64,000 nt of DNA from Tetrahymena thermophila SB210. Its lineage: Eukaryota; Ciliophora; Oligohymenophorea; Hymenostomatida; Tetrahymenidae. Positions within the stretch are counted from its first letter, which is position 1, and the number at the start of each line of letters is the position of its first letter. A program made the translations under genes and the position numbers. Positions 1 to 51,673 of this stretch are shown here, piece after piece. Under the pieces are notes generated by a model. It saw only the letters and a list, made by a program, of their open reading frames with translations, did not search any database and was not told the DNA's origin. Where the stretch lies: assembly GCF_000189635.1 (NCBI RefSeq), contig NW_002476482.1:8049-72048 (forward strand). The letters are read 5' to 3'.

Positions 1-3000
1 GCAATTTTCAAATTTAGAATTGCATAAATCACAATTGTTTCTTGAATAATTATAAAATTAATTTTATTCACATTTTATTTCTTCACATTTTTATTAAGTT
101 AATTTATAACCACTCTCACATTCTTCACATTTATCACTAGATTCTGAGCATATTTTGCAGTTACTTATTTAACATTTTTAGCATTAATTTTCATCATTTT
201 ACTATTCTTTATCTTTTTAACATTTAAAGCATTATTTATTGTGTAATTAGTAATTATTTTCACACTTCTTACAGGTTTAACTAGAAGAGCATTATTAGCA
301 GTTTTACAGCTTGCAAGGTTCACATTATTTATCATTTAAAAATGTACCTTATGGACAATTTTTAACACACTTGTTAACAGATTTATCTAAATAGAAGGAT
401 TCATTACAACTTTTACATTCATTTTAATTACACTCTTTGCAATTTTCAAATTTATTTTTGCATAAATCACAAGCCTTACTTTGATAATTATAAAATTTAT
501 TTTATTCGCACTTTATTTCTTCACATTTTTATTGATTTAATTAATAACCATTCTCACATTCTTCACATTTATCACTAGATTCTGAACATATTTTGCAATT
601 GCTTATAAGACATTTTTGACATTAATTTTCAACATTTTACTATTCTTTATCTTTTTAACATTTAAAGCATTAGTCATTGTGTAATTAGTAATTATTTTCA
701 CACTTCTTACAGGTTTAACTAGAAGAGCATTATTAGCAGTTTTACAGCTTGCAAGGTTCACATTATTTATCATTTAAAAATGTACCTTATGGACAATTTT
801 TAACACACTTGTTAACAGATTTATCTAAATAGAAGGATTCATAACAACTTTTACATTCATTTTAACTACATTCTTAGCAATTTTCAAATTTATTATTACA
901 TAAATCACAATTTTTACTCAAATTATTATAATATTAATTTTATTAACACTTTACTTCTTCACATTTTTATTGATTTAAGTTATAACCACTCTCACATTCC
1001 TCACATTATTCAGTAGACTCTGAACAAACTTTACAATTTTCAATTAAGCACTTTTAGCACTAGTTATTATTATTATTTGAAATGAGTTATTCTTTCTTGC
1101 AAAAAAAGCATTGATTATTATTTAATTGATAATCTGTATTGCATTTTATACAACTTGAATTTGAAGAACATTAAGAACAATTAGGAATAGAGCTTGAACA
1201 TTTTACACATTCATTTTAGCTTTTTAAATAACTTTCTTTATCACAAACACACTTTCCATTCTCTAAAATAAAAGAATTAGAACATTTTTTGCATGATTTA
1301 TTTGAGTCACACTCTAAGCAATTTTATAATTAATCACTACACTTTTTGCATTTATGTAAATCATCTAAATAACTTTAGTTATCACATTTTGTTTCTTCAA
1401 TACATTTCTAATTTTAATTTAACCAGTAACCGTTTTTACACTATAAGCATACACTTTAATCTTTTTAATTACACTCCAAACAGTTTTCATCACATAGATC
1501 CTAAGTACAGAAAACAGTAAAACCTGAAATACCAAAATAAGGGTACTTATTTTTCTTATTAAATCCTGTGTTCTCCTTATCCTTCATATAATTATTATTA
1601 TTAATTATTTTTACATTGATATTCTAAATTTATCCTTTTGTTTTATCTATAGTATATGTTTTAGAGTACTTGTAAGTTCTTTCTTCTTTTGTTTTATCAC
1701 CACACATATTACTTTTTTCATATTATTATTTAGATAGTAAAATATTTTCTGATTAATCATTTAATTAAAGTGCAAAAGTATCTAATTCCATATCAGATAT
1801 AAAATCTACAATTGTGAAACTAAATAAAAATATGACAGTTTTACAGTTATTTGAAGTAATTTCAAATTCTATTTAGCTATTAAACTTATTAGCTAAGAAT
1901 CCTCCTAAAAGTTTCTTGTTGCCACATTTAGTAGTAACCCTTTTCAATTCATTTTTATTTAGAAAGTTGCTTGTCTTAATATTTAAAGCATTTACTTCTA
2001 GATCAGAAAAATAATTATTATAAAATGCTTAAACAATTCCAATAGCTTTTAATAAAAATAAAATACATTAAATTTGTTTGTAATAAATTATAATTTTTAA
2101 AATTGATACCATTTAACTATCCGTTCTGCATATATTATTTATCAATTTAGCAGATTTTAGAATCTTATGAGTAGGTGTAACCTATAGGACAATCAATAAC
2201 ACATTCTCCATTAAAAATGTATTGAGATTTTATATTACACTGAATACAAGATCCGTTATCAAACTTTTCACAATTCTATGAATAGATACAAACCTTTTAT
2301 TTTTAGTCATAAGGAAATAATTATTTTGATTCATCACATTTGTCTACACATTAACCATCTTAAAAGTAAAGATTACAATCTGAACATTTTCCATTTATTG
2401 GATTATTTTTAAAGCATTTAGTGCATTGGTTTTCTTCTGACCCATTACATTCTAAGCAAGATGGATGACAGGGCAAGATATTTATATTTAAGTTTTAAAT
2501 ACCAACATATACTTTTTCTGCTAAATCTATAGAAATCTCAATTTTTTAATCCTTGAAAGGAGTGAATAAGAACTTACCTAATTTATTTCTAAAAATTAAC
2601 TAAAAATAAAATTTTTTAATTTATTACTTAATATTAATTCATCAGAATCATTAAGCGAAGCTATTTAGTTGTCTTTAGTGCATTTAACAATATGAATAGA
2701 TTCATCTTCATAAGCAATTTCATATTTTTATTCATTTATAAATAAATCGAAATTTTTTTTTTAGTTAAATAATAAAAAATCAATATTTATTTCTAGTTTA
2801 TAATGAGGAGGAATTTATTTATTTGATTGAAAAAACATAATTTTTTGTTAAATAGGTTCTTTATTTATCCATTACACTTGATTATATTCATAATAATCTA
2901 ATGAATCTACACATTTAAATTATGTAAGTTTGTCATTCGCATATTCTTCAACTAAAATTAAATTTCTTTCTAAAATAAAATAAAATTTTAATATAAATAA

Positions 3001-3088
3001 AATAATTAAAAATAATTTTACCTTTTTAAATTTAATTTTAAACTGTAAGTTTAATATAAATGAAAATGAAGAAAAGAAAAATATTCAT
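1..3088 (-). CDS. Cysteine-rich secreted/surface protein, 3' end cut by window edge
   Basis: Exons, high to low: 3088-3022, 2969-2628, 2577-2110 and 2045 to beyond position 1. Introns are 52, 50 and 64 nt, all GT..AG. The start ATG opens a hydrophobic N-terminus (MNIFLFFIFIYIKLTV), a likely signal peptide. A mixed middle region follows, then dense CxxC-type clusters (such as CLECN and CKKC) that run off the left edge. These resemble the furin-like/growth-factor-receptor-type cysteine-rich repeats common in ciliate surface proteins. No catalytic motif is visible. The C-terminal part holds a 438-nt (146-residue) tandem repeat, units at about 1-438 and 439-876, with a long stretch that is nearly identical between copies. 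A complete paralogue lies at 5326-7740, and its internal exons have exactly the same lengths, which supports the intron model. TAA and TAG are read as Gln throughout. The cellular role is unknown. Confidence 0.85.
243..880 (-). repeat. 438-nt tandem coding repeat in the cysteine-rich gene
   Basis: The stretch from about 262 to 404 recurs almost without change at about 700-842, offset 438 nt, a multiple of three (146 codons). A third, partly matching copy starts near 876, and part of the same stretch occurs in the paralogue at about 5410-5510. The repeat encodes a block of CxxC motifs, so unit number sets the length of the cysteine-rich domain. Confidence 0.8.
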
Positions 3089-5325
3089 TTTTTTATTTTT
3101 TTGGTGATCCTCAAAAAATTAGAAAAAATAAAAAATAATAATTATAATTTTATTACTGAAAATTGAAGCAAACTAAATTGTTTGAGTTAAAATTTTCACT
3201 CACTCAAATCATAAAATTTGCTTTTGTGGTCTTTAATTATTCTGGAGGAAATAATAAACTTATAAACACTGCTAGAACTATGAACTCAAAAGTTATGCTG
3301 TTTTTAAATAATATGACGTATTATGCTTTTATAAAAATAAAGGTAGGTGTTTATTAACTTGACTATAAAAGAAATATCGCCTATAAAATTATAATAATTA
3401 ATAAATTAATTGAAATCAAAAAATAAACCTTACAATAATTTGATATTGACAATCTAGATAAACAAATATACCTAAAATAAGAAAATACTTTTGATAAATT
3501 ATTTCAATAAGAATTACGCTTTTGCTTTATTAAATTAGAAGTATCTTTAACTGTCTAAGTAAAACTAAATTAAATGATTTCAACATAGAATTTATATTTT
3601 TTTATGCCATTAACTTTCTCTTAAGCTGATTTTATTAATAATTATTTTCATAAATATAACAAAAGTGGTTTTATATCATTTTTCCAACTATTTTATAGAG
3701 AAGAATTTATCACCTCAGTATCTATCCTCCAAGTATTTTATCCTCAATTATTAATGAGCTAGCTCTTTATTTTTAACCACTTATTAAATAAATTTCAACT
3801 TAAAAATATTAGCTCAATAATTTGCCAATGGCTTTTTCATTCATAAATATATACATTTATTATACTTTACAATAACTTATTATTCTACTAAATTTATTAA
3901 AATATTCTCAATTTATACATTTATGATAAATACAGTTTTTTTTTTACACAAAATATTTAGAAACTTCTAAAATTTTTTTCCCCCGATTTTGGATTATTTT
4001 AGCTGAATTCATTTGTCATACAAATTTTGCTACTAGACTTATTTTAAAGGATTCAAAGTAATTAAAAATAGATTTATTTGAACTCATTTAAAATGACATA
4101 ATTTTAATTTTTATAAAACTGCTTGAGAACTATCTTTATTTATCAAAATTAAATAAATTAAAACTTTATAGATATTCATATGATAATATTTAGTGATATT
4201 ATATTTAAAAAATTAGTAACTTTACATTTTGCTATGCTTTTTTTCGTGATTATTGATAAATTAATAGTTGTTATTGCTATGATTAATTATTTTAAATTTG
4301 GTTATATAAATATTTAGATTTTTAATATAAAAAAATATTAAAACACTTTTGTCTAATTCTATAAAATGGATTATTGAAATCCAAAAAGAAATATTGGTAT
4401 TTATATAAATTTTTTTAATTTTCGTTTTAAGAGAAATAATCAAATAATATTTACTGTTTTTTAGAAACTTCTTTAGACTATTTTTTATATTCATTTATAT
4501 CTTAATTTATTTTTTTTAATTATTTTATAGATATAAATGCTAACTATTACCATATTTATTGTTAAATCTTTTATATGTTTCTCTGAACTGTATATAAATA
4601 TAAAATTATAAAGTAGCTGTAAACTAGAAATTTAAATTTAATCATTTCTTTCTTAAAAATATAGTCTAAAAATAAATAATGGTTTGTTTAAATCATTATA
4701 AAAAATAAATATATTTAAACAATTTGAAGGGTTTTATAATGCTATTTTTATTAAAGTTTATGGGTATTCTCTTTACAAATTAGTTTTATTTTTAATAATA
4801 TAAAATAAATTTATAGAAAATATAAATATACTTAATGAGCTTGCTTAATACAATTTATGATTTATAATGCAAAAGTACTTAAACATAAGAAATAATAAAA
4901 AAATGTTATTAGAATACAATAAGTTCAACTTGAGATTAAAACCTATTTAAATATATCAAAATTGACTTAAAAGTATATAAAATAGCAAAAAAATTACAAA
5001 ATAGATAGAAATTTTATCTTTAACTATAATCGCTTTAAAATATTTTTAATTTTTTAGAATAAATTAAAAAGTTCATTTTGAACCATATTTTGTAATTAAT
5101 TAAAAAATTAAGAAATAGAAATATTATTTAGTAATAAAAAACATAAATCATATATAAATATTGTAGATCTTCGTAAACTAAGTGATAAATATATTATTGA
5201 GCTTTTTTTAGAAATTACTGTTACTTTTAGATTTTTGGATTTTTAATATAAAATGGGTCTTTGTTTTCTATTTACTTTAACCATAATTTTAAATTCCTTA
5301 TTTTGCCTACCAAATAATCTATTTT
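3089..5325. other. Intergenic spacer, AT-rich, possible remnant of a duplicated neighbour
   Basis: Lies between the start of the first cysteine-rich gene and the stop of its paralogue. No supported gene. Short stretches resemble sequence upstream of the second copy: about 3217-3235 resembles 7868-7886, and about 3705-3745 resembles the 3' end of the 8255 gene near 8270-8330. This suggests that the duplication carried flanking DNA that has since decayed. Confidence 0.5.
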
Positions 5326-7740
5326 TCACATTTATCTAAAATAATAAAAACCAGCTTTACATTAAAGGCATTTATCTTTATTACACATTAAACAGTATTA
5401 TTGTTTACATGGTTCACATTATTTATCATTTAAAAATGTACCTTATGGACAATTTTTAAAGCACTTGTTAACAGATTTATCTAAATAGAATGATTCATTA
5501 CAACTTTTACATTCATTTTAATTACACTCTTTGCAATTTTCAAATTTATTATTGCATAAATCACAAGCACTGCTCTAATAATTATAAAATTAATTTTATT
5601 CACATTTTACTTCTTCACATTTTTATTGATTTAATTTATAACCACTCTCACATTCCTCACATTTTTCAGTAGACTCTGAACAAACTTTACAATTTTCAAT
5701 TAAGCACTTTTAGCACTAATTATTATTTGAAATGAGTTATTCTTTCTTGCAAGAAAAGCATTGATTATTATGTAATTGATAGTCTGTATTGCATTTTATA
5801 CAACTTGAATTTGAAGAACATTAAGAACAATTAGGAATAGAGCTTGAACATTTTACACATTCATTTTAGCTTTTTAAATAACTTTCTTTATCACACACAC
5901 ACTTTCCATTCTCTAAAATAAAAGAATTAGAACATTTTTTACATTATTTATTTGATTCACACTCTAAACAATTTTATAATTCATCACTACACTTTCTGCA
6001 TTTATGTAAATCATCTAAATAACTTTAGTTATCACATTTTGTTTCTTCAATACATTTCTAATTTTAATTTAACCAGTAACCGTTTTTACACTTTAAGCAT
6101 ACACTTTAATCATTTTAATTACACTCCAAACAGTTTTCATCACATAGATCCTAAGTACAGAAAACAGTAAAACCTGAGATACCAAAATAAGGGTACTTAT
6201 TTTTCTTATTAAATCCTGTGTTCTCCTTATCCTTCATACTATTATTATTATTAATTATTTTTACATTGATATTCTAAATTTATCCTTTTGTTTTATCTAT
6301 AGTATATGTTTTAGAGTACTTGTAAGTTCTTTCTTCTTTTGTTTTATCACCACACAACTAATTCTTTTCATATTATTATTTAGATAGTAAAATATTTTCT
6401 GATTAATCATTTAATTAAAGTGCAAAAGTATCTAATTCCATATCAGATATAAAATCTACAATTGTAAAACTAAATAAAAATATGACAGTTTTACAGTTAT
6501 TTGAAATAATTTCAAATTCTATTTAGCTATTAAACTTATTAGCTAAGAATCCTCCTAAAAATTTCTTGTTGCCACATTTATTAGTAACCCTTTTTAATTC
6601 ATTTTAATTTAGAAAGTTGCTTGTCTTAATATTTAAAGCATTTACTTCTAGATCAGAAAAATAATTATTATAAAATGCTTCAACTATTCCAATAGCTTTT
6701 AATAAAAATAAAATACATTAAAATTGTTTGTAAATAAATTTAAATTTAAAATTGATACCTTTTAACTATCCGGTTTGAATATATTATTTATCAATTTAGC
6801 AGATTTTAGAATCTTATGAGTAGGTGTAACCTATAGGACAACTAATAACACATTCTCCATTAAAAATGTATTGATATTTTATATTACATTAAATACAAGA
6901 TCCGTTATCAAACTTTTCACAATTCTATGAATAGATACAAACCTTTTATATTTAGTCATAAGCAAAAAATTATTTTGATTCATCGCATGTGTCTACACAT
7001 TAACCATCTTAAAAGTAAAGATTACAGTCTGAACATTTTCCATTTATTGGACTATTTTTAGAACATTTGGTGCATTAGCTTTTTTCTGGTCCACTACATT
7101 CTAAGCAAGATGGATGACAGGGCAAGATATTTATATTTAAGTTTTAAATACCAACAAATACTTTTTCTTCTAAATCAATTGAAATCTCAATTTTCTCATC
7201 CTTGAAAGGAGTAAATAAGAACTTACCTAATTTATTTCTAAAAATTAACTAAAAATAAAATTTTTAATATTTTACTTAATGTTAATTCATCAGAATCATT
7301 AAGCGAAGGTGGTATTGATTTATCATTACTGCATTTAATCATATGAATAGATTCATCCTCATAAACAATTTCATATTTTTATTCATTTATAAATAAATTG
7401 AAATTTTTTTTCACATTAAATAATAAAAAATCAATATTTATTTCTAGTTTAAAATGAGGAGGAATTTGTTTATTTGATTAAAAAAAGATAATCTTTTATT
7501 AAATAGGTTCTTTATTTATCCATTACACTTAATTATATTCATAATCTACTGAATCTACACATTTAAATTATTTTAGCTAGTCATTTGTGTATTCTTCAAC
7601 TAAAATTATATTTCTTTCTTTTAGATATTTAATAATAAATATTATAAAATATTTGTTTTTAAAATAATTTTACCCTAATAGGCTTATTCTTAGAAGGTTT
7701 TTCTGATATTAATTAAAAATAGTAAAATTATCATCCTCAT
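5326..7740 (-). CDS. Cysteine-rich secreted/surface protein, complete paralogue of the gene at 1-3088
   Basis: Exons, high to low: 7740-7674, 7617-7276, 7226-6759 and 6695-5326. Introns are 56, 49 and 63 nt. The first three exons are 67, 342 and 468 nt, identical to those of the left-hand copy. In both copies the second intron must end at a third AG, in TTAG before GTAAG, to keep frame; this removes 49 or 50 nt and explains a 1-nt length difference between the copies. The N-terminus (MRMIILLFLINIRK) is hydrophobic and a likely signal peptide. The C-terminal part is rich in CxxC pairs (CEPCKQQYCLMCNKDKC) and ends at TGA. It has fewer cysteine repeats than the left copy. Probably a secreted or cell-surface protein of unknown function. 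Confidence 0.87.
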
Positions 7741-38052: not shown

Positions 38053-40173
38053 TCAGCTTTTATGAGTCTTTATATAAACATTAACTGCGAAGGTTAGTAG
38101 TGATATCATAAAAAGAATTGAATTTTTTAGCATTGTGAAGGTGATGGTAATTCCAAAAAACTCAAAAGGCTAAGAATTTTACAAAAGTACGAGCTCGTTT
38201 TTAACATTATCAATTTATTAGATGACTGCCTTTATTCTTTTGATGATAAATTGTTTGTTATTATCAAATTTAATTCTAAGTTTTCTTAATAAAGCCCTGT
38301 ATAGATAGCTGCAGAATTCATCGTTTTAGAAAATGAAGTCTTCTCTAACTAAATTTCTAAAAATGATTCTTATTTCCTCTAATATTTATGTATGGTATAT
38401 AAATTAGTAGTTTATAGAAGCAGTATAATAAAGACTTATGCTGATGAAAGAAAAGATAACTACAAAATCGAAGACTAGATACCATAAATTTAGATTGCAA
38501 AATCTAAAGATGTCAAGCAAATGTAAAAAAATGAATATTATAGGATAAAGGGAATACAACAACATAAAACTGGCGTTCGCTTATCCTCTAAGCCAAAATC
38601 TTTTTCCATATTCTATTGTAAGCCTCCTGAGCTAAATCCAGTTTTTGTAGGTATCATAACAAATTACATTTAAGGTAGGCAGAACTTTTTTGTAGCAAAT
38701 GAACTTTTCATCTTTTTTTGGTTTAATTAGAAATAGCATTTGAATGTTAAGGTAATATATTCTGTGAATATCCGCTATTTAAGATAAAAGGAATTTGACC
38801 ACTAAAAAGTATATTAAAAAGTTGAATAAGCTGAGCTAAGAACCTAAAATACACTCATACCATTCTAGAGATGTAATTCTACTTTAGTTGTATATCGAAA
38901 AATAGACTATCCAAATTATTGATCTTAAAAATGCAAAGAAGAGAGGAATGTAAAATTTAGTGTAAATAGGGTAGAGTTTACTGAACTGGTTGATAAGATA
39001 ATGCAAAATAACAATTCCATTATAACTATTACGACAAGCAATAGGATTTTCATAATTTTTTTATTAAAGATTTTGCTCTTAAACTTCTTTTATTTCTTGT
39101 TGTTCAGATTTCTCATCAGCTTTTTATGTTACTTTAATTTTATTCCTCAACTGTTTGTAGAATTCATTATGTAATTTTTTTATTTTATCCAAAGATTCTC
39201 TAATTTCATTTGAATTGATATCTTAGAAAAAGCTACAATAGAACATACTTACATCAACTTCGTCTCTCTTTGAGGCAAAATAAAGCTCTTCCATCACACA
39301 TTCGTCATCTTATAGTTTCCAATTACTCAAATAGAAATCCTTATTTTCTTCTTCCTTATTTATATAAGTAGTTCTATACAACTCTATTTAATAAGGGTGG
39401 AGCATAGCGTATCTGCATGAAATAGAAAAGATTCTAAAAACCAACAAAATCCAATTATTATATAACAAAAAAAACTCAAAGGTAGCTCTATCTTTCTTAC
39501 TAGCAAAATATGATATTGTAAAGCAAAGATTCAAAAACCATAAAAACAGTTAGTAGTAAGAAAATTTTCCTAAAATTCCAAATCTCAAATTCTTGTAGAT
39601 GAACAAACCATTGAAAGGATAAAAAAATATAATACAAAAAGGCCCAAAAATGAAATATATTAAATGATAAAAAAAGAATTCAAAAAACTAAGTCCAAATC
39701 CATGAAGCATAAATATTTGAATTCTCGATTTATTTTAAATTAGATTTATTTGTTTTATTCTTTTCAAGTATACAATCAAAATCACAGCTGTCTTACTTGA
39801 AGTAATCGCTATCGCTCACAAAACTAGATGCATTTCTATTACTTTAAAACAATCTATCTAAATTCTCTCCAAAAATATAGCTTTGCTAATCTCCTTCCTA
39901 AAATAAATCTTCTCTGTCTCTTTGATCTGCTTATTTTATTTTGGCATTTCCAGATTCATCACTAACTCCACTGAAATAATTTTCATCGCGATTAATTTAT
40001 TTATTATTTACATTTAAAGATGGTTTAATATTATTATCTTGATACATATTAAATTATTCTTGGCTTTTATTCTAAAATGTATGGTCTTAATCTACTTTAT
40101 CTTTTTCAGCAGATGGTTCTTAACTTAACCTATTACTAATTCGTTAAAAAGGATCTTTAAGAATCTATTCCAT
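38053..40173 (-). CDS. Polytopic membrane protein, 706 residues, paralogue of 40869-42962
   Basis: A single exon, 2121 nt. Residues 1 to about 145 are polar and acidic, then YASWIWTQFFEFFFYHLIYF begins the membrane part. About eight hydrophobic segments can be seen, for example YFIFGPFCIIFFYPFNGL, QLFLWFLNLCFTISYFA, FYIPLFFAFLRSIIWIVYF, LFNFLIYFLVVKFLLSQI, SFMLLYSLYPIIFIFLHL and a last one near the C-terminus (LKNSILFMISLLTFAVNVY). A cytosolic loop of about 150 residues with charged, helical sequence lies between the first three and the later segments. There is no signal peptide. No transporter or channel signature was recognised, so function is unknown. The tandem paralogue lies about 700 bp upstream in the same orientation. 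Confidence 0.87.
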
Positions 40174-40868
40174 ATGTTTACTTTATTAATTATAAGTTGT
40201 AGTACAATTAATTATATATTTTTATATTTAAATCTTCACAAACTTAATAAATAGTTAAGTTTTATGTTTTCCTAAAGAAATTATACAAAACTATCTTTTA
40301 CAATTAATTAATGTTACAATCGCTAGATTTAATAGTAAAATCATAGATTTTGATAATTTACATAGGTGTACAAAAATCAAAATAGCCACTAAAATATATT
40401 CTTTTAAGTGTAAACAAAGGACTAGATTACACATTAATATTTTTTGTATATTTAGACTATAAACAGAAACATATGTAAATATTATTAATTTAAATATTAT
40501 CAATAGAACAACTTTATAAAAGAAAAAACCCTGCAACCTCATAAACTAATAAATGAATTATCAATCTTTATTAAATTTTTCATTTATTATTAGTTATGTT
40601 ACAAATGTAAACCGCTTGATTGATTTTTGAGAGGGAATCGAAGATAATTTACAGTATTTTTTAAGTTTAAACTTGCTAATACATTTTATTAAACCAATAT
40701 GGAAAGAAATATTATTTTTTTTAGTTAAATTGAATGTTTTAATTTATGTTACATTAAAAATATTTGAAATTATAAGAATTTTTTTAGTTTAATGAATAAA
40801 TTTTAACAAGATAATTTTTAAATATTTTATTATAAATTTTGAATATCAAAAATGAATGATTTATTAAT
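40174..40868. other. Spacer between tandem paralogues
   Basis: About 700 bp of AT-rich DNA between the two membrane-protein copies. No gene supported; open frames here have no coding character. Confidence 0.5.
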
Positions 40869-42962
40869 TCAATGTGCTTTAAGGTAAACATTAATTGAGA
40901 ATGTTAGAATTGAAGATAAGAAAATAAGACCGCTTTTGAGAATTGAGAAAGTGATGGTAAAGCCAAAGCATTAGAAGGGCTCTGTGTTTGATAAAAGTTA
41001 TAATTCATTTTTAGAGTCATCAATAGATTCAATTATGTTATTAATATATTCTTGAATTGCTTCTTCATTATTTCCAGTCTTTTCCCTTAAATTTTTTAGG
41101 ATAATCCTGTATAAATAATTGGAAGGTTCTTGCTTTGATTATAGCAAATCTTCTCTTTAAAGATTCCTGAAAACTATTTGTATTTCTTCTAAAATGGAAA
41201 TATGGTAGACAAACGAATAATTGATACATGCAGAGAAGTAGAGACAGATAGCTACACTAATAAAAGTGATAAAGAAATCGAAGGTCATAAACCAAATTTC
41301 TAACTCGCAAAAATGAAAAACATCTAGCATGTAGAGGATTAAACTAATAGCTGGATAGATAGAGTATAATAGCATAAAACTTAAATTGACCTATCCTCTT
41401 TTCCAAAATCTTTTCCCATACTCTATGGATAGTCTCCTCAACTAAACCCAATTTTTAAAGTTATTATTTTATGTCAAATTAAGAGTAGGAAGATACTTTT
41501 AGGTTTAAATGTAATTTTAATCTTTTTTTGGTTTAATAAGAAATAGCATTTAAACCATTAGATGATATATTCTATGAGAGTCAAAAATAATGTTTAACAA
41601 GAATAGACCTATTGTCACATAAAGTAAAAAGTTGAAAGCTGTCATTGCTGTTCCAACAACTGTAACAAATAAATCAAATTCTAAATATTTTTCAGGATAG
41701 TATACTAAAGTGTAGATATACCAAATGCTAGATCTTAAAAGCCCAATTAGAAACACAATATAGTTTGCTTGATAGAATTTCTAATTTTTATTGAATTATT
41801 TAATCAAAAAGTGGAGAATCACCATACCATTAAAAGATTAAGACTTTGTCTAGTTTTTATCCGTTTTTAACTAAGAAAATTATTCTACCAATTTTACAGA
41901 ATTATTTCCTAGTATGTCTAAAGAGACTCTAGAAAACTGAAGAGATTCTAATTGAATTTGTTAAATTTCTTGCAATTTGTTATAAGTGTTATCATTTATT
42001 TCGTAGAAAAAACTGGTAGAAAACATAGTCAAGTCTACTTCGTTTCTTTGCTGTGCTGCAAAAAGTTCTTCTATTAAACATTAATCTGTTTGCTTTTTCC
42101 AATCAGCTAAGTAAAAATCTTTTAATTTTTCTTCTTTGGTTAATAATTTCTTTTTATAAAGGGTTATTGTCATGGGATGCAGCATCGCATATTTGCAAGA
42201 TATAGAAAATATACGAAAAATAACCATAATCCACATGTTATAGACTTCGAATACTTCTACAAAAGTCTATGTTTTAGGAATAAATATATAAGCTATTGTA
42301 ATAAACAAGTTTGTAATCCAAAGTACAAACTAGATGAAACTAAAATCACCTCCTAAGTTAAAGCCAAGATTCTTATAAATATAAGTCTTATTAAAAGGAT
42401 AAAAAATAATAATGCAAAAAGGCCCAAATATGTAGTAAATTATATGATAAATGAAGAATTCAAAGAATTGAGACCAACTCCAAGAAGCGTAATTGCCAAA
42501 CTTGCCTTAAAATTCATCTAAATTGATATCTCCTTCTAGATTCATTATCTAGTCAAAGTTTGAGCTGTCTTATTTAAAATACTCGCTATCATCTGAATAC
42601 GATTAAGTATTCGTCATTTGATCAGCGTTGTACTAATCTCCATCAAAATTTTATTAATCATCTTAATCTTCATTATTTTCAATTTATTTATTAGAATTTT
42701 ATCCTAGATTTATAAAATCTTTATTATTTTCTCTTGAACAATCTCTTTCTTATTTTTAAGATCTGAAACCTTATTTCAATTTTTTGATGTACTTCACCAA
42801 ATCATCCTGCTCGTCTTCTTGAAAAGTTTAAGTTTTAGATCTATCAGAAGAATTTATATTATTATGTTTTTTTCTTTAATTTGTTTCACTCAAATTGTAA
42901 GATTGGTTATCATCGTTTATGGAAAGAAATCTCTCTCTTATTTCTTTATCTTAGGAATCCAT
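40869..42962 (-). CDS. Polytopic membrane protein, 697 residues, paralogue of 38053-40173
   Basis: A single exon, 2094 nt, ATG at 42962 to TGA at 40869. It is colinear with the downstream copy throughout: acidic N-terminus (MDSQDKEIRERFLSINDD), the shared entry motif NYASWSWSQFFEFFIYH and IFGPFCIIIFYPFN, KNLGF, a charged helical loop, and a C-terminal hydrophobic segment after FGFTITFSILKS. The strongest conservation between copies is in the first membrane block and near the C-terminus; the acidic N-terminus differs. The same number of membrane segments is seen. This is an ordinary tandem gene duplication with both frames intact. The family is not recognised. Confidence 0.87.
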
Positions 42963-43712
42963 AATTTAACTAATTTCCTAATATCTGAATGAAAAATTTG
43001 ATTATTTTTTAAAGTCAATTAGATTATTAATTGAAAGAGTGGTCTTTATTTTATTTGGCGAAATCTTATTTCTAAGTAATCTAAAAATAATTTATCAACT
43101 TATTAATTTTGTTTAAATTTCACATAAAAGAAATTTGATGTAATTAAAGAACTTATAGAGAAAAAAGGAATAAGTAAGTAATTTATTAGTTTTGATCAAA
43201 AATTAATTTCAATGCAAACACATACTTTTAAAATACCAAAATTGGATATTTCCTATTAATTTATCATCTATATCTAAGCTTTTATTAAAAAAACTAAATA
43301 CAAGTAAATAAGTAAAACAAGCTCATCAAAAAGCAAATCTTCAACATAAACATAAAATAAATATATTCACTACTGATTTTACCTTTGAATAAAAGAATGT
43401 TTGATTCAATAAGTCATTAGATAATTTTTAATATCATATTTTGTATATTTTTATTTAAAAATAAATAGTGACTTTAAAGGTCTGTAAATAGATTCGATTA
43501 ATTGGTAATTTGAATTAACGATAGATAAACTTTTAACAGATATTTATTTATTAAACAATTAAATACTATTAGTAGAATTTAAATAATTATGATTAAAATA
43601 TTATTAAGTATTATGTAGATGATCGAGCAGATAGAAAAGATTTAACCATAAAAATTTTTTATTATATTTTTGGTGTTGAATTATTTATTAGATTTTGATT
43701 AGTTTTTTATGC
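42963..43712. other. Intergenic spacer
   Basis: About 750 bp, AT-rich, between the 5' end of the membrane-protein gene and the 3' end of the thioesterase gene. Nothing recognisable. Confidence 0.5.
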
Positions 43713-44429: not shown

Positions 44430-45673
44430 CTTTGTTTTTCTATTCACTACTTTTAATTAGGAATTAGATTTGGATTTTAAACTAATTTCTGAAATATATA
44501 GATATTATTATCTGTTCAATTAATTCATTATATATTTTTAATATAAACAAATACATTAACTAAGTAGATCTTAAAAAGATTATAACATTCTATCTACACT
44601 TATATAGATTTATTATTTTAAAATATTTATTGTCAAACATTTTACTTATAAATTAGATGTAAGGAATAAAAATTAGAAATTGGTATTTTAATTTTTATTA
44701 ATTAATCTTTAAATGAATTTACTCTTATATAATGCAGTTCCTATAACCTTGTAATTAGCTGCTTGTGTAAAAGGCCAGGTTGGTTTGGAGATAAATTTAA
44801 ATTTATTATTGAGTAATTGTGAATATAGAGGTTAAGAAAAGTATCATAAATATTAGAAATTAATATAAAAAATAAATTAAATAATTTTTAAAAATATGAT
44901 GCAATTAAATTATTTCATTTTCTTACTTTTTACTTTTTATTAATGAAATTAATAAGTGTTAGTTTAGTGAGTTTTTGTGTTAAAAAATTTGATTTCTTAA
45001 TTTGACTTTGTTTTTTTACAAACAACTTTTGTTTAAATAGAAAATAAGCATTTATAATTCATAAAGATTTAATTTACTTGATTTATAAAGTTTATTTTGT
45101 AAATTAAAATTTTAATTATTTTAATATATTTATTTCCTAACCTTCTAAGTATATCTAAAATATTTTATAAATACTGTAGGTTCTCATAAATTAACACCCT
45201 GTTAAATTAACACCCAATTATTTATTCATGAAAATTTCATCCAAAAATTGAGTAAAAAACAGACAAGGGGGTGGGTGTTAATTAATGAGAACCTACAGTA
45301 TATTGTAATTTTTATTTAACCTTTGCATATTCTTTAAAAAACATTAATTTCGATTATTAATACATCAATTTATATTTTTGATATAAAAGCTTAGCATGTA
45401 TGTAGTTTAATATAAGACACAAGCAATTACTAAAAGCTTTGATTGCTTGTCAAAAATGTGTGCGATTTAAAGGAATTGCTTATTTATGAATATTCAATCT
45501 TTAAATTTATATAAAATAAAATTTTTTTTTTAATTCCAATATTATTATATTTTTAAAGTATTAAAATATCTTTTATTTATCCATATTTTAGTTTAAATTA
45601 TTCAATTACAAAATATTATAAAATAAATGTATTAAACTATATTATTCTAATTTTTTTTTTCTTCATGTTTTGA
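44430..45673. other. Intergenic spacer carrying a small inverted-repeat element
   Basis: About 1.2 kb, AT-rich. Apart from the TA-flanked element at 45172-45300 there is no recognisable feature. A 10-nt match to the core of the Tetrahymena chromosome breakage sequence near 44773 is not extended on either side. Confidence 0.5.
45172..45300. mobile_element. MITE-like element with terminal inverted repeats and TA flanks
   Basis: A 125-bp core (45174-45298) is bounded on both sides by TA. The left end CTGTAGGTTCTCATAAATTA and the reverse complement of the right end, CTGTAGGTTCTCATTAATTA, differ at one base, and the match continues into ACACCC. Inside the left arm the ATTAACACCC block is repeated. 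The core has no coding capacity. TA flanks and perfect-ended inverted repeats are the signature of Tc1/mariner-type non-autonomous elements; this is inference from structure, because no transposase is in the window. The element is visibly less AT-rich than its surroundings. Confidence 0.75.
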
Positions 45674-48600
45674 TCATATATTTACTATCATTAGAATAAA
45701 TTGTAAGACAACTAATCTCTTTGATTTAAGACACTTATTCTTTATTTTCATTGTTTCTTATTTTTAACTTTTAAAATAAATAAGTGTAAATTACTAATCA
45801 AAATTAAGAATAAAATGTTTATTAAAAATATTATTTTTAATCAGTAAATATCAAACAACATTATCAAGAATAATAAGAAAAATAAATCAAATAAAAAGCA
45901 ATTGATAAATAAATAAATTAAAAGAGTTTTATTGTTTTAAATTCATTTTTATAATAAAAAGTATCGTAATCCAAAATAAATAAACTTTTCTACGAAAGAG
46001 TGAGCGTTAAGTTTGAGAGATTAGTGCACTTTTTTAAAGCAGAACCTAAACTTGATGCTCCAATCTCGCTAATTTAATTCAACCTTTTTAAATATCGAAG
46101 TACACATATAAAATATATTAGTTAGTAAGAGAGAAAAAAAAAAATGAAATAATAAGAAATGATTAATAAATAATAAAAGCAAAAGTTGAAAATAAAAAAT
46201 GAATTAAACTAAGAAGGAAAAAAAAAACATAAGCAGAATAAAAAGAAAAATAAATTAAATTAAAATTAATAAATAAATTAAAGAATTTTATTGTTTTAAA
46301 TTCATTTTTATATTAAAAAGTATCACAATCCAAAACAAATAGACTATTTTTACGTAAGAAAAAGTGTCAATTTTGAGAGATTAGTCCACTTTTCTAAAGC
46401 TGAACCTAAGTTTGATACTCCATCATCACCAATTTAATTTTTACTTTTTAAGTATTGAAGAAAAAATAAGTAATTAATAAACTAGTAAATAGGAAAAATT
46501 GAAGAAATAAATTAAAAATAAATTGAAAATTACAAAATGAATTAAATTAAAAAGGAAGAAAAATAAAAATAAAATAAATAAGAAAAATAAATCAAATAAA
46601 AAACAATAAATAAATTAAAAAAATTTTATTGTTTTAAATTCCTTTTTATATTAAAAATTATCAAAACCCAAAACAAAATAAACTGTTTTTACTAAAGTGA
46701 AAGTATTAAATTTGAGAGATTAGTGCAGTTCCCTAAAGCAGAACATAAGCCTGATATACCTTCATCACCAATTTAATTCTAACTTTTTAAATATTGAAAT
46801 AAGAATAAATAAATAGTTTATTTATTATTTAATTAGAAAATAAAAAATATGAAATAATTAATAAATTATAAATTTAAGAAAAAGTTAAAAATTAAAAAAT
46901 GAGCTTATTTAACAATGAAACAAAAAAACATAAGCAGAATAAATAAAAAAAGAAAAGCAAATCTAATAAAAAGCAATAAATAAAAATATTAAAAGAGTTT
47001 TGTTGTTTTAAATTCATTTTTATAAAAAGTATTATAATTCAAAATTAATAAACTGCTTTTACTGAAGAGAAAGTTATAAGTTTGAGAGATTAGAGCATTT
47101 TTCGAATGCAGGACCTAAACCTGATGTACCTTCATCACCAATCTAATTACAACTATTTAAATTGAAGAAAATATATAATTAATTAGTTATTTAGAAGGAA
47201 AAAAGGAATAAAAATGTGAAATAATAAGAAATTAATAAATTTATAATGAAAGCAGAAGTTGAAAAAGAAAACATTAGCTAAATTAATTAACAATAAATAA
47301 AAAAAAACACATCCAAAATAAAAAAGAAAAATAAATCAAACAAAAAGATAAAAAATAAGCTAAAAGAGTTTTATTGCTTTAAATTGAATTATTAATTAAA
47401 AAATATAACAATCCAAATAAATAAACTATTTTTACGAAAGATCAAGAGTCATTTTTTAGAGATTATTGAGTTTCTGAGCTTCTGAGTTTCTGAGATTTTG
47501 CGTTTTTGAGTTTCTGAGTTTCTGAGTTAATTTATTAGTTTGTTAGTTTACTAGTTTCTGAGTTTTTTGCGCACTTGAGCTTCTTTCAGAGTTTCAATGT
47601 TTTTTTATGTTCAAATGTTTCAGTGTTAGTGTCTAAAGTTATAATAAACTAAAATTAAATTATATAAAACTATTATTAAATTTTTTATTTAAGATGTATT
47701 CTGAGTGCATATTTATGTGCGAGTATTTCTATTCTATTCTATTCTGGACCAATTTAATTTTAACTATTTAATTATTGAAGAATAAATATTTAAACAATTT
47801 GTTATTAAGAAGGAAACAAAGAAGAAAAAATATGAAATAATAAATTAATAATGATAGAAAAAGTTGAAAATCAAAAAATTAACATGGAAGAAAAAAAAAA
47901 ACAAACATAATAAAAAAGGAAAATAAATCTAAAAAAATAGTAAAATAAATAATTTTTATTATTTTAAATTCATTTTTATATTAAAAAGTATAACAATCGA
48001 ATAAATATTTTTACGAAAGAAAAAGTGCCAAATTTGTGAGATTAGTGTACTTTGCTAAAGCAGAACCTAAGTTTGATGCACCAATTTCACCAATTTTATT
48101 ATAGCTATTTAAATATTGAACAAAAGATAAAAAATTAACTTGTAGTAAGAAGAAAAAATGTTAAATAATAAGTAATAAATAGATTTATTATGAAAGCAAA
48201 AGTTGTGAATGAAAAAATGAGCTAAATAAATAAGGAAACAAAAAAAATAAACTGAATAAAAAGAAAAATAAAAAAAATAAAATCAATTATTTAAATAAAT
48301 TTAAAGATTTTTATTGTTTTAAATTCTTTTTTATATTAAAAAGATAACAAATAAACTATTTTTACGAAAGAGAAAGTGTCAAATTTTAGAGATTAGTGCA
48401 CTTTTCGAAAGCAGGACCTAAGCCTAATGTACCTTCATCAACAATTTAATTATAACTTATTAAATTGAAGAAATAATATATAAATAATTAGTTAGTTAGT
48501 TAGTTAGTTAGAAAGAAAGAAAAAAAGAAGAAAAAATGTGAAAAAATAACGAGTGAATAAATTAATAAAAAGAAAAGTTGAAAATAAAAAATTACTTTAT

Positions 48601-49188
48601 TTAACAAGGAAGAAAAAAAACAAAAGCAGACTAATAAAGAATAAAAAATCAAATAAAGCAATAAATAAATTAAAAGTGTTTTATTATTATAAATTCATTT
48701 TTATATTAAAAAGTATCATAATCCAAAACAAACAAACAATTTTTACGAAAGAGAAAGTGTCAAGTTAGAGAGATTAGTGCAATTTCTTAAAGCAGAACCT
48801 AAGTTTGATGTACCTTCATCACCAATTTAATTATAACTTTTTAAATATTAAAATAAATAAATAATTAATTAGTTAGAAGGAAAAAATGAAGAAAAATATT
48901 AAATAATAAGAAACGCATACCATTTGAAACCATTTTTAAAAATAGATTTCAAATAAATTAATAATGAAAGGAAAACTGAAAATAAAAAATGAGCTAGATT
49001 ACTAAGGAAAAAAAAAATAAAAAGGAAAAATAAATCAAATAAAATGTGAAAAATAAATTAAATGAGCTTTATTGTTTAAATTAACTAATTATTTTTACCG
49101 AAGTTCAAGAATCAAGTTTAAAAGATTAGTACACTTTTCTAAAGCAGAACATAAACCTGATATACTTTAATCATCAATTTGCATTTAA
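45674..49188 (-). CDS. LRR gene built from repeated 90-nt exons; 5' end not found, possibly a decaying gene
   Basis: Eight intact exons of exactly 90 nt: 49188-49099, 48836-48747, 48455-48366, 48104-48015, 47152-47063, 46782-46693, 46443-46354 and 46083-45994. Each starts with one base after AG and ends with two bases before GTAAAA (phase 2 at both sides). Joined, they read as RNI-type LRRs, for example SYNQIGDEGTSNLGSALRNC then TNLSNLTLSL. A last exon at 45767-45674 fits the same phase and ends with KCLKSKRLVVLQFIL and TGA. One member (47763-47436) is interrupted by about 240 nt of foreign repeat. No start codon, signal peptide or kinase part was found above 49188; a possible exon fragment ends near 49430. 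It may be an intact but unusual gene, or the tail of a gene like 32036-37320 that has lost its 5' part. Confidence 0.55.
47437..47762 (-). pseudogene. LRR exon broken by a minisatellite-bearing insertion
   Basis: Both ends of the standard exon are present (acceptor side at 47763, donor side at 47436), but 328 nt lie between them instead of 90. The extra sequence holds a (TTTCTGAG)n-type minisatellite at about 47464-47570 and a TATTC repeat at about 47727-47745. The frame from the acceptor side runs into a TGA, so this unit cannot encode a normal repeat. Confidence 0.7.
48487..48520. repeat. TTAG / GAAA microsatellite
   Basis: A run of (TTAG)n followed by (GAAA)n within the intron-like part of one LRR array unit. 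Similar but shorter TTAG runs occur at the same place in the unit near 49210-49225. Confidence 0.7.
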
Positions 49189-49869
49189 CTTTTTAAATTT
49201 TGAAGAAAAAATAGAGTATTAATTAGTTAGTTAGTTAAAAGTAAAAAATAATAAAAAAACATGAAATAAATAATAAAAATGAATAAATTAATAAAGAAAG
49301 CAAAAGAAAGCTGAAAATGAAAAGAAAGGTAAAGTAGTTAAAAAAAATAAAAACGAGAATGAATCTCTATTAGAAAAGTAATACTTAAATTATTAAAAAT
49401 AAAAAATAATAATAATAATATTAAATATACCTTTGAATAATATGGAGAACCTAATGAGATTAAAGTGAAGAGCTTAAAAACTTTTTTTATTATTAACAAG
49501 TAAATTTTTTTACAATCTATTTTTAAAAAAGTTTTTAATAAAATTAAAAGTATATTTATATATTTTAAAAAATACCTCTATTAATTATTTTACTAATATT
49601 TTTTAATAAATATTTTAACTCATTCTTTTAACATACAAAAGAGGATAGATTTATTTTCATTTAATTAATTTTATTTGTAATTTTTCATATTTCTATTTTG
49701 TTTTAGATAAAAACAAAGATTTTCATATTTGTTTGAAGTTATCAAATTCAAAATTATAAAATTGAATTCATTTTAAAATCACTTTTATGAAACAATTCTA
49801 TTAAATTACAATCAATAACTTAAAAAATTTTGTTAAATTAATCAATAATAAATTTATAGAGCAATTTAC
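49189..49869. other. Spacer between LRR array and Rab-like gene
   Basis: About 680 bp, AT-rich. On the minus strand a short coding-like stretch ends in a GT donor near 49430, but it has no start codon and no clear homology, so it is not called as an exon. Confidence 0.4.
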
Positions 49870-50684
49870 TCATTTCTTTTAATATGAACAAGTTTCAAAA
49901 AAGCTTATTCTTTAAATGGTTTCTTCTATAAGCTAATTATATGCTTCTTTTATATTTACATTATATTTTGCAGATACTTCAAAAAATAAAATTCCATAAG
50001 AATCTGAAAAAGATTTTGCTTCATTAAAGCTAACTTGTCTATTAGAATATTTGTCTAATTTATTTCCAAGCAGAAGGTAGGTAAATTTCCTATCCTAAAT
50101 TTTCGTTGATTCGAAATAATATTTAGTCATTTCTTCAAAAGAATTTCTGTCTGTAATATCATAAACTAAAATTAAGCAACCACCTTTCAAAAGTAATCTA
50201 AAGTAATTTTTCATAGTAACAGCTCCTTGTATTTCTTCACCTGATGTGTCTATTTAAGTTATTTATAAATTCAAACCACACTATTTTTATATTTATTTAT
50301 TGGTTAGTTAATTCAATTGTAGGTTTTGGCTTAATCATTTTATTGAAAACAAATATTTTAAAAATTTATTTTTGTTTAATACCTGAATAAAGGTATTAAA
50401 TTGTTTTAATTAATTAATTAATTTTTATTGATTATTATTTAAGGAGAAAATAATGATTAAAATCTGAGTAAGCAGAAAAATTTTAGTTGTATTATCTATC
50501 AAAAGTGAGAGAGAGAAGTAAAAAAAAATATTTCAATTAAATAAGCTACTTTTTTTATATCATTCTGATAATAAGGTACTTAATAATCAATTCCACAATA
50601 CCTTTGAGCAATAGTTGATTTACCAACAGCTAATTCTCCACCAAATAAAACAATTATAAAACCTTGTTTTCTTATTTACTCCAT
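49870..50684 (-). CDS. Rab/Ras-like small GTPase, divergent
   Basis: Exons 50684-50550 and 50280-49870; the intron is 269 nt, phase 0; 181 residues, near the usual small-GTPase size. Motifs: P-loop GGELAVGKS (residues 15-23), DTSGEE in place of WDTAGQE, GNKLD for the NKxD guanine-specificity motif, and EVSAK for the SAK motif. All four nucleotide-binding motifs are therefore recognisable, but switch II differs: W is replaced, and Ser and Glu stand at the A and Q positions. The usual catalytic Gln is thus Glu. The protein ends in CSYQKK with no C-terminal CC or CAAX prenylation motif, so membrane attachment, if any, is by another route. Related to Rab-like (RABL/IFT27-type) or orphan GTPases; the exact subfamily is unclear. 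Confidence 0.88.
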
Positions 50685-51673
50685 TTTCTATTTTGAATTG
50701 ATTAAATCTTTGATAATTAAATTATTTATAAAAAATGTTGATCCTTTTAAAATTAAGGCATTTAAAAAATAGAATATTTTTCTATATTCTTATATAAATT
50801 TAATGAATAATAACTTTAAAAAATCTTCACTGATTAGTACGTACATCAAGATTGTGGAAACGCAAGAAATTAATTACAGGATTAACTAGATTAATTATTT
50901 GAATAGTAATTTTATTTTAATTTCTATAACAAAACTTTTATTTTATTATTTTTTAATTTTAAATTTTATATTAAATAGATTTTTATTTGATAATTATTAT
51001 ATAATACTTTATCATTTTCAAAATTAATTAATTATTTTAAAAACAAATAATTTCCAAATATTTTAACTAAAATTAATTTTCTAAAAATTTTTATTAATTT
51101 TAAAAGTAAAATATTTTTTTTATTTTTTAGAATAAATAATTGCAAATATAAAAATAATTTTATTTTTTCAACTTTTTAGAATAAAAAGTTTTAAATTAGA
51201 AAAATAAAATCCTTATTTAAAGATAAGAAAATCTTTTGGTTTTATGAATGGGAAGATGTAATTAGATAGACAGACAGACTGGTTTTATTTAATAATAATA
51301 AGCATTTTAATTTTTCAATATTAAAAAATAATGAATACTTTTTAATTGATTTGATTACAAAATTTAAAGAATAAACTTTGCGCCAAAATTTATTTAACAA
51401 ATAAAAGGATCATTTATAAAATTGAATTTGAAATTTAAAAAATCATTGAAAGGGAAATTAAATAAAAACGCAAATTATAAATAAAACACGCAAAGTTATT
51501 AAATATTATTATCATAATCAATTAATAAAATATCCTAACACTCCCAAATTATATTTATAATTAATATAGATAATAATAATTAAAGCGATTATAAACTAGG
51601 GATATAGGTAAATTTGCAAGGAGATAATAACAATCATTAAATACTTATAGACCAGTCAAATTATTACAAAAGC
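50685..51673. other. Divergent spacer
   Basis: About 990 bp between the GTPase and the SPOC-protein gene, divergently transcribed. AT-rich, no element recognised. Confidence 0.5.

Follow-up and report, generated by a model that had tools for sequence, protein, structure and literature searches.

A likely group III 90-bp-exon LRR gene of Tetrahymena thermophila with a unit broken by an insert and a probable loss of its start exon

What kind of gene carries leucine-rich repeat (LRR) exons that all have the same length and phase, and does the copy studied here still have a beginning? We addressed this question in a window of 64,000 nucleotides of Tetrahymena thermophila SB210 (contig NW_002476482.1, positions 8,049 to 72,048), the whole stretch of DNA analysed. 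The initial annotation had described an array of eight such exons on the minus strand, had found no 5' part and had left the choice between a novel cassette-type gene and the tail of a gene that had lost its head. The class is not novel: 90-bp exons define the group III LRR genes already described for this species, in which introns peak at about 257 bp and units lie near 347 bp (Xiong et al. 2019, PMC6564038). With a probability of about 85%, we regard the array as such a group III gene, in which units were duplicated, one unit was broken by a retroelement and the start exon was most likely lost.

An array of eight 90-nt LRR exons

The eight exons span positions 49188 to 45994 (Table 1). Each measures exactly 90 nt, has GT-AG borders, is in phase 2 on both sides and encodes a single LRR of 30 residues (29 complete codons plus a split one). 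Coordinates, splice borders and the open frame all bear out the original description. There is no TGA, read in the ciliate code, among the 232 codons of the eight exons, and the reading frame is open through all junctions, with the end of the head exon and the start of the terminal exon both in phase 2. The spacing of about 350 bp was likewise correct (start-to-start distances of 339 to 381 bp), except for one distance of 952 bp across a ninth, broken unit, on either side of which the exons form a set of four. Six introns were 249 to 291 bp long, and the intron containing the broken unit was 862 bp long. The exons were 64 to 87% identical to one another; the six introns also resembled each other (72 to 81% over ungapped columns, 48 to 75% counting gaps). 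Because the introns repeat along with the exons, the duplicated unit is an exon plus an intron, about 350 bp in all.

Table 1. Features of the LRR gene copy and its surroundings (positions in the window)
Feature	Positions	Strand	Basis or remark
Terminal exon (94 nt including the TGA) with the conserved C-terminus KCLKSKRLV	45674..45767	-	fits in phase
LRR exon 8	45994..46083	-	90 nt, phase 2-2
LRR exon 7	46354..46443	-	90 nt, phase 2-2
LRR exon 6	46693..46782	-	90 nt, phase 2-2
LRR exon 5	47063..47152	-	90 nt, phase 2-2
Broken ninth LRR unit: 5' piece 47763-47748, insert, 3' piece 47467-47436 with GT donor	47436..47763	-	
Insert, antisense to the gene, about 280 bp	47468..47747	+	dispersed copies in the genome
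LRR exon 4	48015..48104	-	90 nt, phase 2-2
LRR exon 3	48366..48455	-	90 nt, phase 2-2
LRR exon 2	48747..48836	-	90 nt, phase 2-2
LRR exon 1 (most diverged)	49099..49188	-	90 nt, phase 2-2
Head exon (FLSSSLQSHQVLHIIQ) of 50 nt, starting in phase 0 and ending in phase 2; half repeat preceding the array	49431..49480	-	homology
Stretch resembling a GTPase-type gene's 3' flank elsewhere (C72, C121), unlike LRR heads; mark of a probable breakpoint immediately 5' to the head exon	49532..49760	-	homology
Putative new start exon with ATG (MSQNIYQKILVKQLIE; 48 nt, phase 0), doubtful	49576..49623	-	open frame, GT donor, right phase

The consensus of the repeat is xNQIGDEGxSGLGSALEKCTNLSNLTLSL, with I4, L12, A15, N21, L22, L25, L27 and L29 invariant. 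Leucine occupied columns 12, 22, 25, 27 and 29 in all eight exons and position 16 in six, the other two having phenylalanine at this position. In the conceptual protein of 303 aa, the Pfam model LRR_6 was detected over the whole protein (48.5 bits, E value = 4.8e-13), although no individual stretch reached significance by itself. LRR_4 scored barely above the cut-off. The best of 13 matches to solved structures was 9y6s, annotated as "Leucine-rich repeat protein" (E value = 3e-16).

We then compared the array with the rest of the genome (101.0 Mb, 445 contigs), whose telomerase RNA locus (Rfam RF00025, 161.9 bits) agrees with the T. thermophila RNA at 159 of 159 nt. A 20-nt exon signature had 2,888 matches with up to two mismatches, while the reversed pattern had 3. 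In the other fetched loci, many of which had been chosen because they contain LRR units, the layout of acceptor, signature and donor occurred 172 times at a length of 90 nt; for eight further lengths, the counts ranged from 0 to 3. The regularity of the array exceeds chance. Furthermore, each window exon had a counterpart in a different fetched locus to which its identity (77 to 87%) was about the same as to its nearest neighbour in the array (77 to 87%), which is as expected if genes exchange units.

Substitutions gave a weak sign of selection on the eight exons. Their mean dN/dS was 0.70, and nonsynonymous differences from the consensus were fewer than in a rough neutral simulation (67.5 versus 75.8, P value = 0.028), under which zero TGA in 232 codons had a probability of 0.25. 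A stronger sign of constraint is that all eight exons keep exactly 90 nt beside introns that are rich in gaps and variable in length, a state that may predate a truncation. Neutral evolution of the 90-nt blocks, which the initial annotation had named as a refuting outcome, is therefore not supported by dN/dS, the simulation and the constant length, and it is not strongly excluded by them either.

The two ends of the gene copy

The terminal exon had been proposed to fit the array; it does so in phase and ends at the boundary originally drawn. The region 45600-45993, which comprises the last intron, the terminal exon and its flank, was matched in all 40 scored candidates (window included) of 1,655, with an identity of 71 to 75% in the 39 others. 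A C-terminus of the KCLKSKRLV type, in frame with a phase-2 acceptor, was present in 11 of 14 other loci (absent in L018, L019 and L026) and, under a stricter test, in 7 of the 14. The 3' end is thus stereotyped.

At the opposite end, the statement that the array has no 5' part did not hold, since a conserved head exon is present. We examined the corresponding exon in 17 other loci, drawn from 19 BLAST hits in the fetched loci with L004 and L090 left out: acceptor and phase-2 donor were kept in 16, L026 having no AG, and the length was 50 nt in most loci and 53 nt in L084 and L096. Of 1,122 candidates, 39 places besides the window were scored, and in 36 of these the match to the family starts at 49539-49491. 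As for the remaining places, C40 starts at 49615, and C72 and C121 match the upstream part only. The stretch in C72 comes after an open frame ending in ETFWYQKK, which on comparison by eye closely resembles the end (FETCSYQKK) of the GTPase-type frame upstream in the window. That frame belongs to a small GTPase-like gene directly upstream of the array on the same strand (49870-50700, with in-frame TAA and TAG read as Q).

Upstream of the head exon, a purpose-made pattern located a short MIQQIKYYEELEE-type exon with an ATG in 14 of the 17 loci; the exceptions were a divergent sequence (L016), an incomplete sequence (L084) and a candidate containing a stop (L111). No family ATG start exon of this type was found upstream of the head exon in the window. 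Together with the resemblance of the upstream stretch to C72 and C121, this makes it seem that the start exon was removed, as if by recombination, at a breakpoint in the first intron, and loss of the family start exon at that point is, judging from the sequence, most likely. The earlier suggestion of a gene that had lost its head is therefore close to the mark: the start exon seems gone, and the family head exon was kept.

Some further features of the window lie outside the array. A MITE-like inverted repeat at 45171-45301 has 29-nt arms, 97% complementary and 73 nt apart; the arm has 14 genome matches with up to three mismatches, two of which are the window's own arms. Two very similar stretches of cysteine-rich open frame, one of them partial, lie on the minus strand at 918-7338 in the manner of a tandem duplication, and adjacent minus-strand open frames of 835 and 741 aa at 38053-43094 resemble paralogous membrane proteins.

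The broken unit and the dispersed copies of its tail

Read on the plus strand, the insert in the ninth unit consists of a GTTTCTGA-like minisatellite followed by a tail core (47690-47745) that carries (TATTC)n at the 3' end. The interrupted exon resumes at nt 56-62 after the insert, which amounts to a loss of some 40 nt of exon, and no target duplication was seen in this copy. The tail is most likely the 3' tail of a Tt.REP-type element, an identity that follows from the published description and not from a comparison of element sequences. Tt.REP is a non-LTR retrotransposon with a conserved 54-bp 3' tail, present in 169 macronuclear copies and tied to group III LRR genes, and the remainder of the element is absent from the macronucleus, being excised as an internal eliminated sequence (PMC6564038; the tail is credited there to Fillingham 2004). 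We took the tail of the insert for that of Tt.REP because its copy number, size, place and short tandem repeat fit this account.

Next, we looked at where copies of the tail occur. A 34-nt core pattern, which contains nothing of the LRR exon, had 109 genome matches with up to three mismatches, while the reversed pattern had none. We read 101 distinct copies among these matches, the window's included, and in 98 of them the tail joins an LRR exon in antisense orientation. The junction could be parsed automatically in 79 copies, with positions from nt 14 to nt 24 accepted. In 71 of these, the tandem repeat of the tail began after exon nt 18, and in the remaining ones the junction lay at nt 15-22. 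When the 22 unparsed copies were read by eye, 19 had the start of an LRR exon, one was doubtful (L037) and two had no LRR (L060 and L089). The exon-start motif just upstream of the tail scored at least 17 of 21 in 94 of 102 copies (one counted twice), versus 61 of 427 random stretches from the same loci. The tandem repeat of the tail was mostly TAGAA, with TGGAA, TTGAA, TGAA and ATG forms as well.

The far side of the insert was sorted in 100 copies. The fetched stretch held no exon end in 31 of them, and in 12 none was present within 1,000 nt. The next full exon followed in 18 copies; in 23, the exon restarted at nt 6-23, and in 16 it restarted further in. Of the 23, seven proved on reading to be the next exon in full, and L123 (nt 23) was set apart as a different case. 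In about 15 of the 100 copies, the exon resumes at nt 8-13, which corresponds to a target duplication of about 10 nt, AAATTGGTGA; a target duplication was also found in L074, L104 and L115. As expected of a site-specific non-LTR retrotransposon, the 3' junction is constant at one target nucleotide and a target-site duplication is present, the latter in copies other than that of the window.

One insert (L087, at about 712-1010 on the plus strand) contains a tRNA-like segment that includes a B box, as in a SINE, and for this reason we considered whether the inserts might be SINEs derived from tRNAs and ending in a REP tail. The B box was confined to a single one of 103 copies. No tRNA was called by ARAGORN in 60 loci, and Rfam gave nothing at an E value of 0.1 or better in 14 loci; the idea is at most a lead. 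By eye, a 5' end of the type AAAAAAACTTT (element sense) is seemingly shared by L042, L054, L079, L098, L104, L114 and L126, the middles of which differ.

Competing readings and comparison with known systems

On our preferred reading, the window holds a macronuclear copy of a group III gene in which a conserved head exon of 50 nt precedes eight LRR cassettes of 90 nt each and the terminal exon is conserved as well. These cassettes would have arisen by duplication of the whole exon-plus-intron unit, as seen in the similarity of the units, with unequal recombination, a mechanism taken from PMC6564038, as the probable cause, and recombination may also have exchanged units. Since every cassette is in phase 2-2, units could be gained or lost without a frameshift, and the cassettes deserve the description as interchangeable and frame neutral that they had been given. 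The ninth cassette would have been destroyed by a retroelement inserted in antisense near exon nt 18. If the gene is expressed, exon 4 would be spliced to exon 5 across the 862-nt intron with the frame kept, and a soluble LRR protein would result, provided that a start exists. The same phases would allow any cassette to be skipped in frame, and the broken unit would presumably have to be skipped; both points agree with the initial idea that alternative splicing, named there beside recombination, could give LRR domains that vary in length. We think an array that serves such splicing most improbable, because Xiong et al. explain variable LRR length by recombination between units and the string "alternative splic" has 0 occurrences in the main text of their paper (PMC6564038). 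A stronger competitor is an intact, expressed gene in which recombination was followed by the gain of a new start exon (49623-49576) and which encodes an LRR protein of about 303 aa. This exon would indeed yield 303 aa in a single frame that stays open across every junction between ATG and TGA, the head and terminal exons are intact, and the exons combine constant length with the absence of TGA. However, a comparable start-like exon appears in 20.5% of Markov resamplings, the absence of TGA is itself unremarkable under neutrality (see above), and the GT donor of the candidate is missing from both related stretches (C72 and C121). We dropped it as the exon completing the gene because its surroundings belong to the 3' flank of a GTPase gene. 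An intact gene is thus a tentative option at best, and from the sequence of the locus, 5' truncation of the window copy appears more likely than the use of a new start exon.

A similar choice arises for the element. The favoured targets of Tt.REP are LRR gene introns according to PMC6564038, which reports REP remnants in such introns, and the fixed exon junction could then reflect one or a few old insertions that were copied with their unit. Among pairs of tail copies, 47 shared 95% or more identity over 100 nt on the element side. Their LRR flanks were 60 to 91% identical, and slightly more similar (median, 77%) than those of the other pairs (median, 73%; n = 5,003), with identities of at least 85% in 10 of the 47 versus 659 of the 5,003; some tail copies may be clonal. 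On the other hand, the flanks were below 85% in 37 of the 47 close pairs and only 2 reached 90%, which indicates that most such pairs occupy clearly different units. The target duplications and the variation of the tandem repeat among copies also speak against copied insertions, and we consider this explanation unlikely. An exon broken by an insertion would no longer be recognized as one, and a gene model would count the target site as intron. The copies suggest a target site within the exon, as opposed to the published target in LRR introns; we found no statement of a fixed exon target in the text of PMC6564038 or, at the level of search results, in the wider literature. On balance, we lean slightly towards the view that Tt.REP-type elements are sequence specific for exon nt 18 (codon 6), insert in antisense with a duplication of about 10 bp and are co-adapted with the cassette.

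If this view of a cassette target is correct, each insertion kills one frame-neutral cassette and spares the gene as a whole, so with the expansion of LRR units the element would have thousands of places in which to land and be tolerated, and the element copies would seed further recombination between units. That the frame-neutral design makes an insertion cost one repeat and not the gene is a consequence that we did not find stated in the text of PMC6564038. A single-nucleotide target in a coding cassette that exists in thousands of copies would account for the location of this retrotransposon beside LRR units; it would refine the published intron-target view and make the link between mobile element and fast-growing gene family directly testable. 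The recurring exon target is, in our opinion, the part worth following.

Compared with the published group III genes, the array has eight exons of exactly 90 nt, four consecutive ones on each side of the broken unit (at least three in a row characterize the group), phase-2 introns on both sides of the exons and six introns of 249 to 291 bp against the published value of about 257 bp. Tandem units are detectable at the nucleotide level, and REP tails are associated. For the masking of published genes by consensus repeats (CRS), the similarity of the units and the genome-wide matches served as a substitute. The six-leucine pattern is also present, the correspondence of our columns to the published six being our own reading, as position 16 is the only one named. 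The window copy differs in that it seems to have no family start exon and that one unit is broken by an insert, and otherwise in nothing essential. A role of group III genes in the recognition of bacteria or food is put forward as speculation in PMC6564038. Like Tt.REP, the tail is short, conserved and next to LRR units (109 copies here, with up to three mismatches, versus 169 published); unlike in the published account, its junction lies inside the LRR exon at one nucleotide and not in an intron. The array itself is one more, probably damaged, example of a known Tetrahymena-specific gene class, and what is new is the family head exon with its upstream change of sequence, the broken ninth unit and the dispersed tail that joins LRR exons. 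Retroelements also enter a host multigene family at a preferred site in the retrotransposon hot spot (RHS) genes of trypanosomes. In contrast to RHS, the targets here are LRR cassettes with many sites per gene, the element is antisense and the host family is unrelated.
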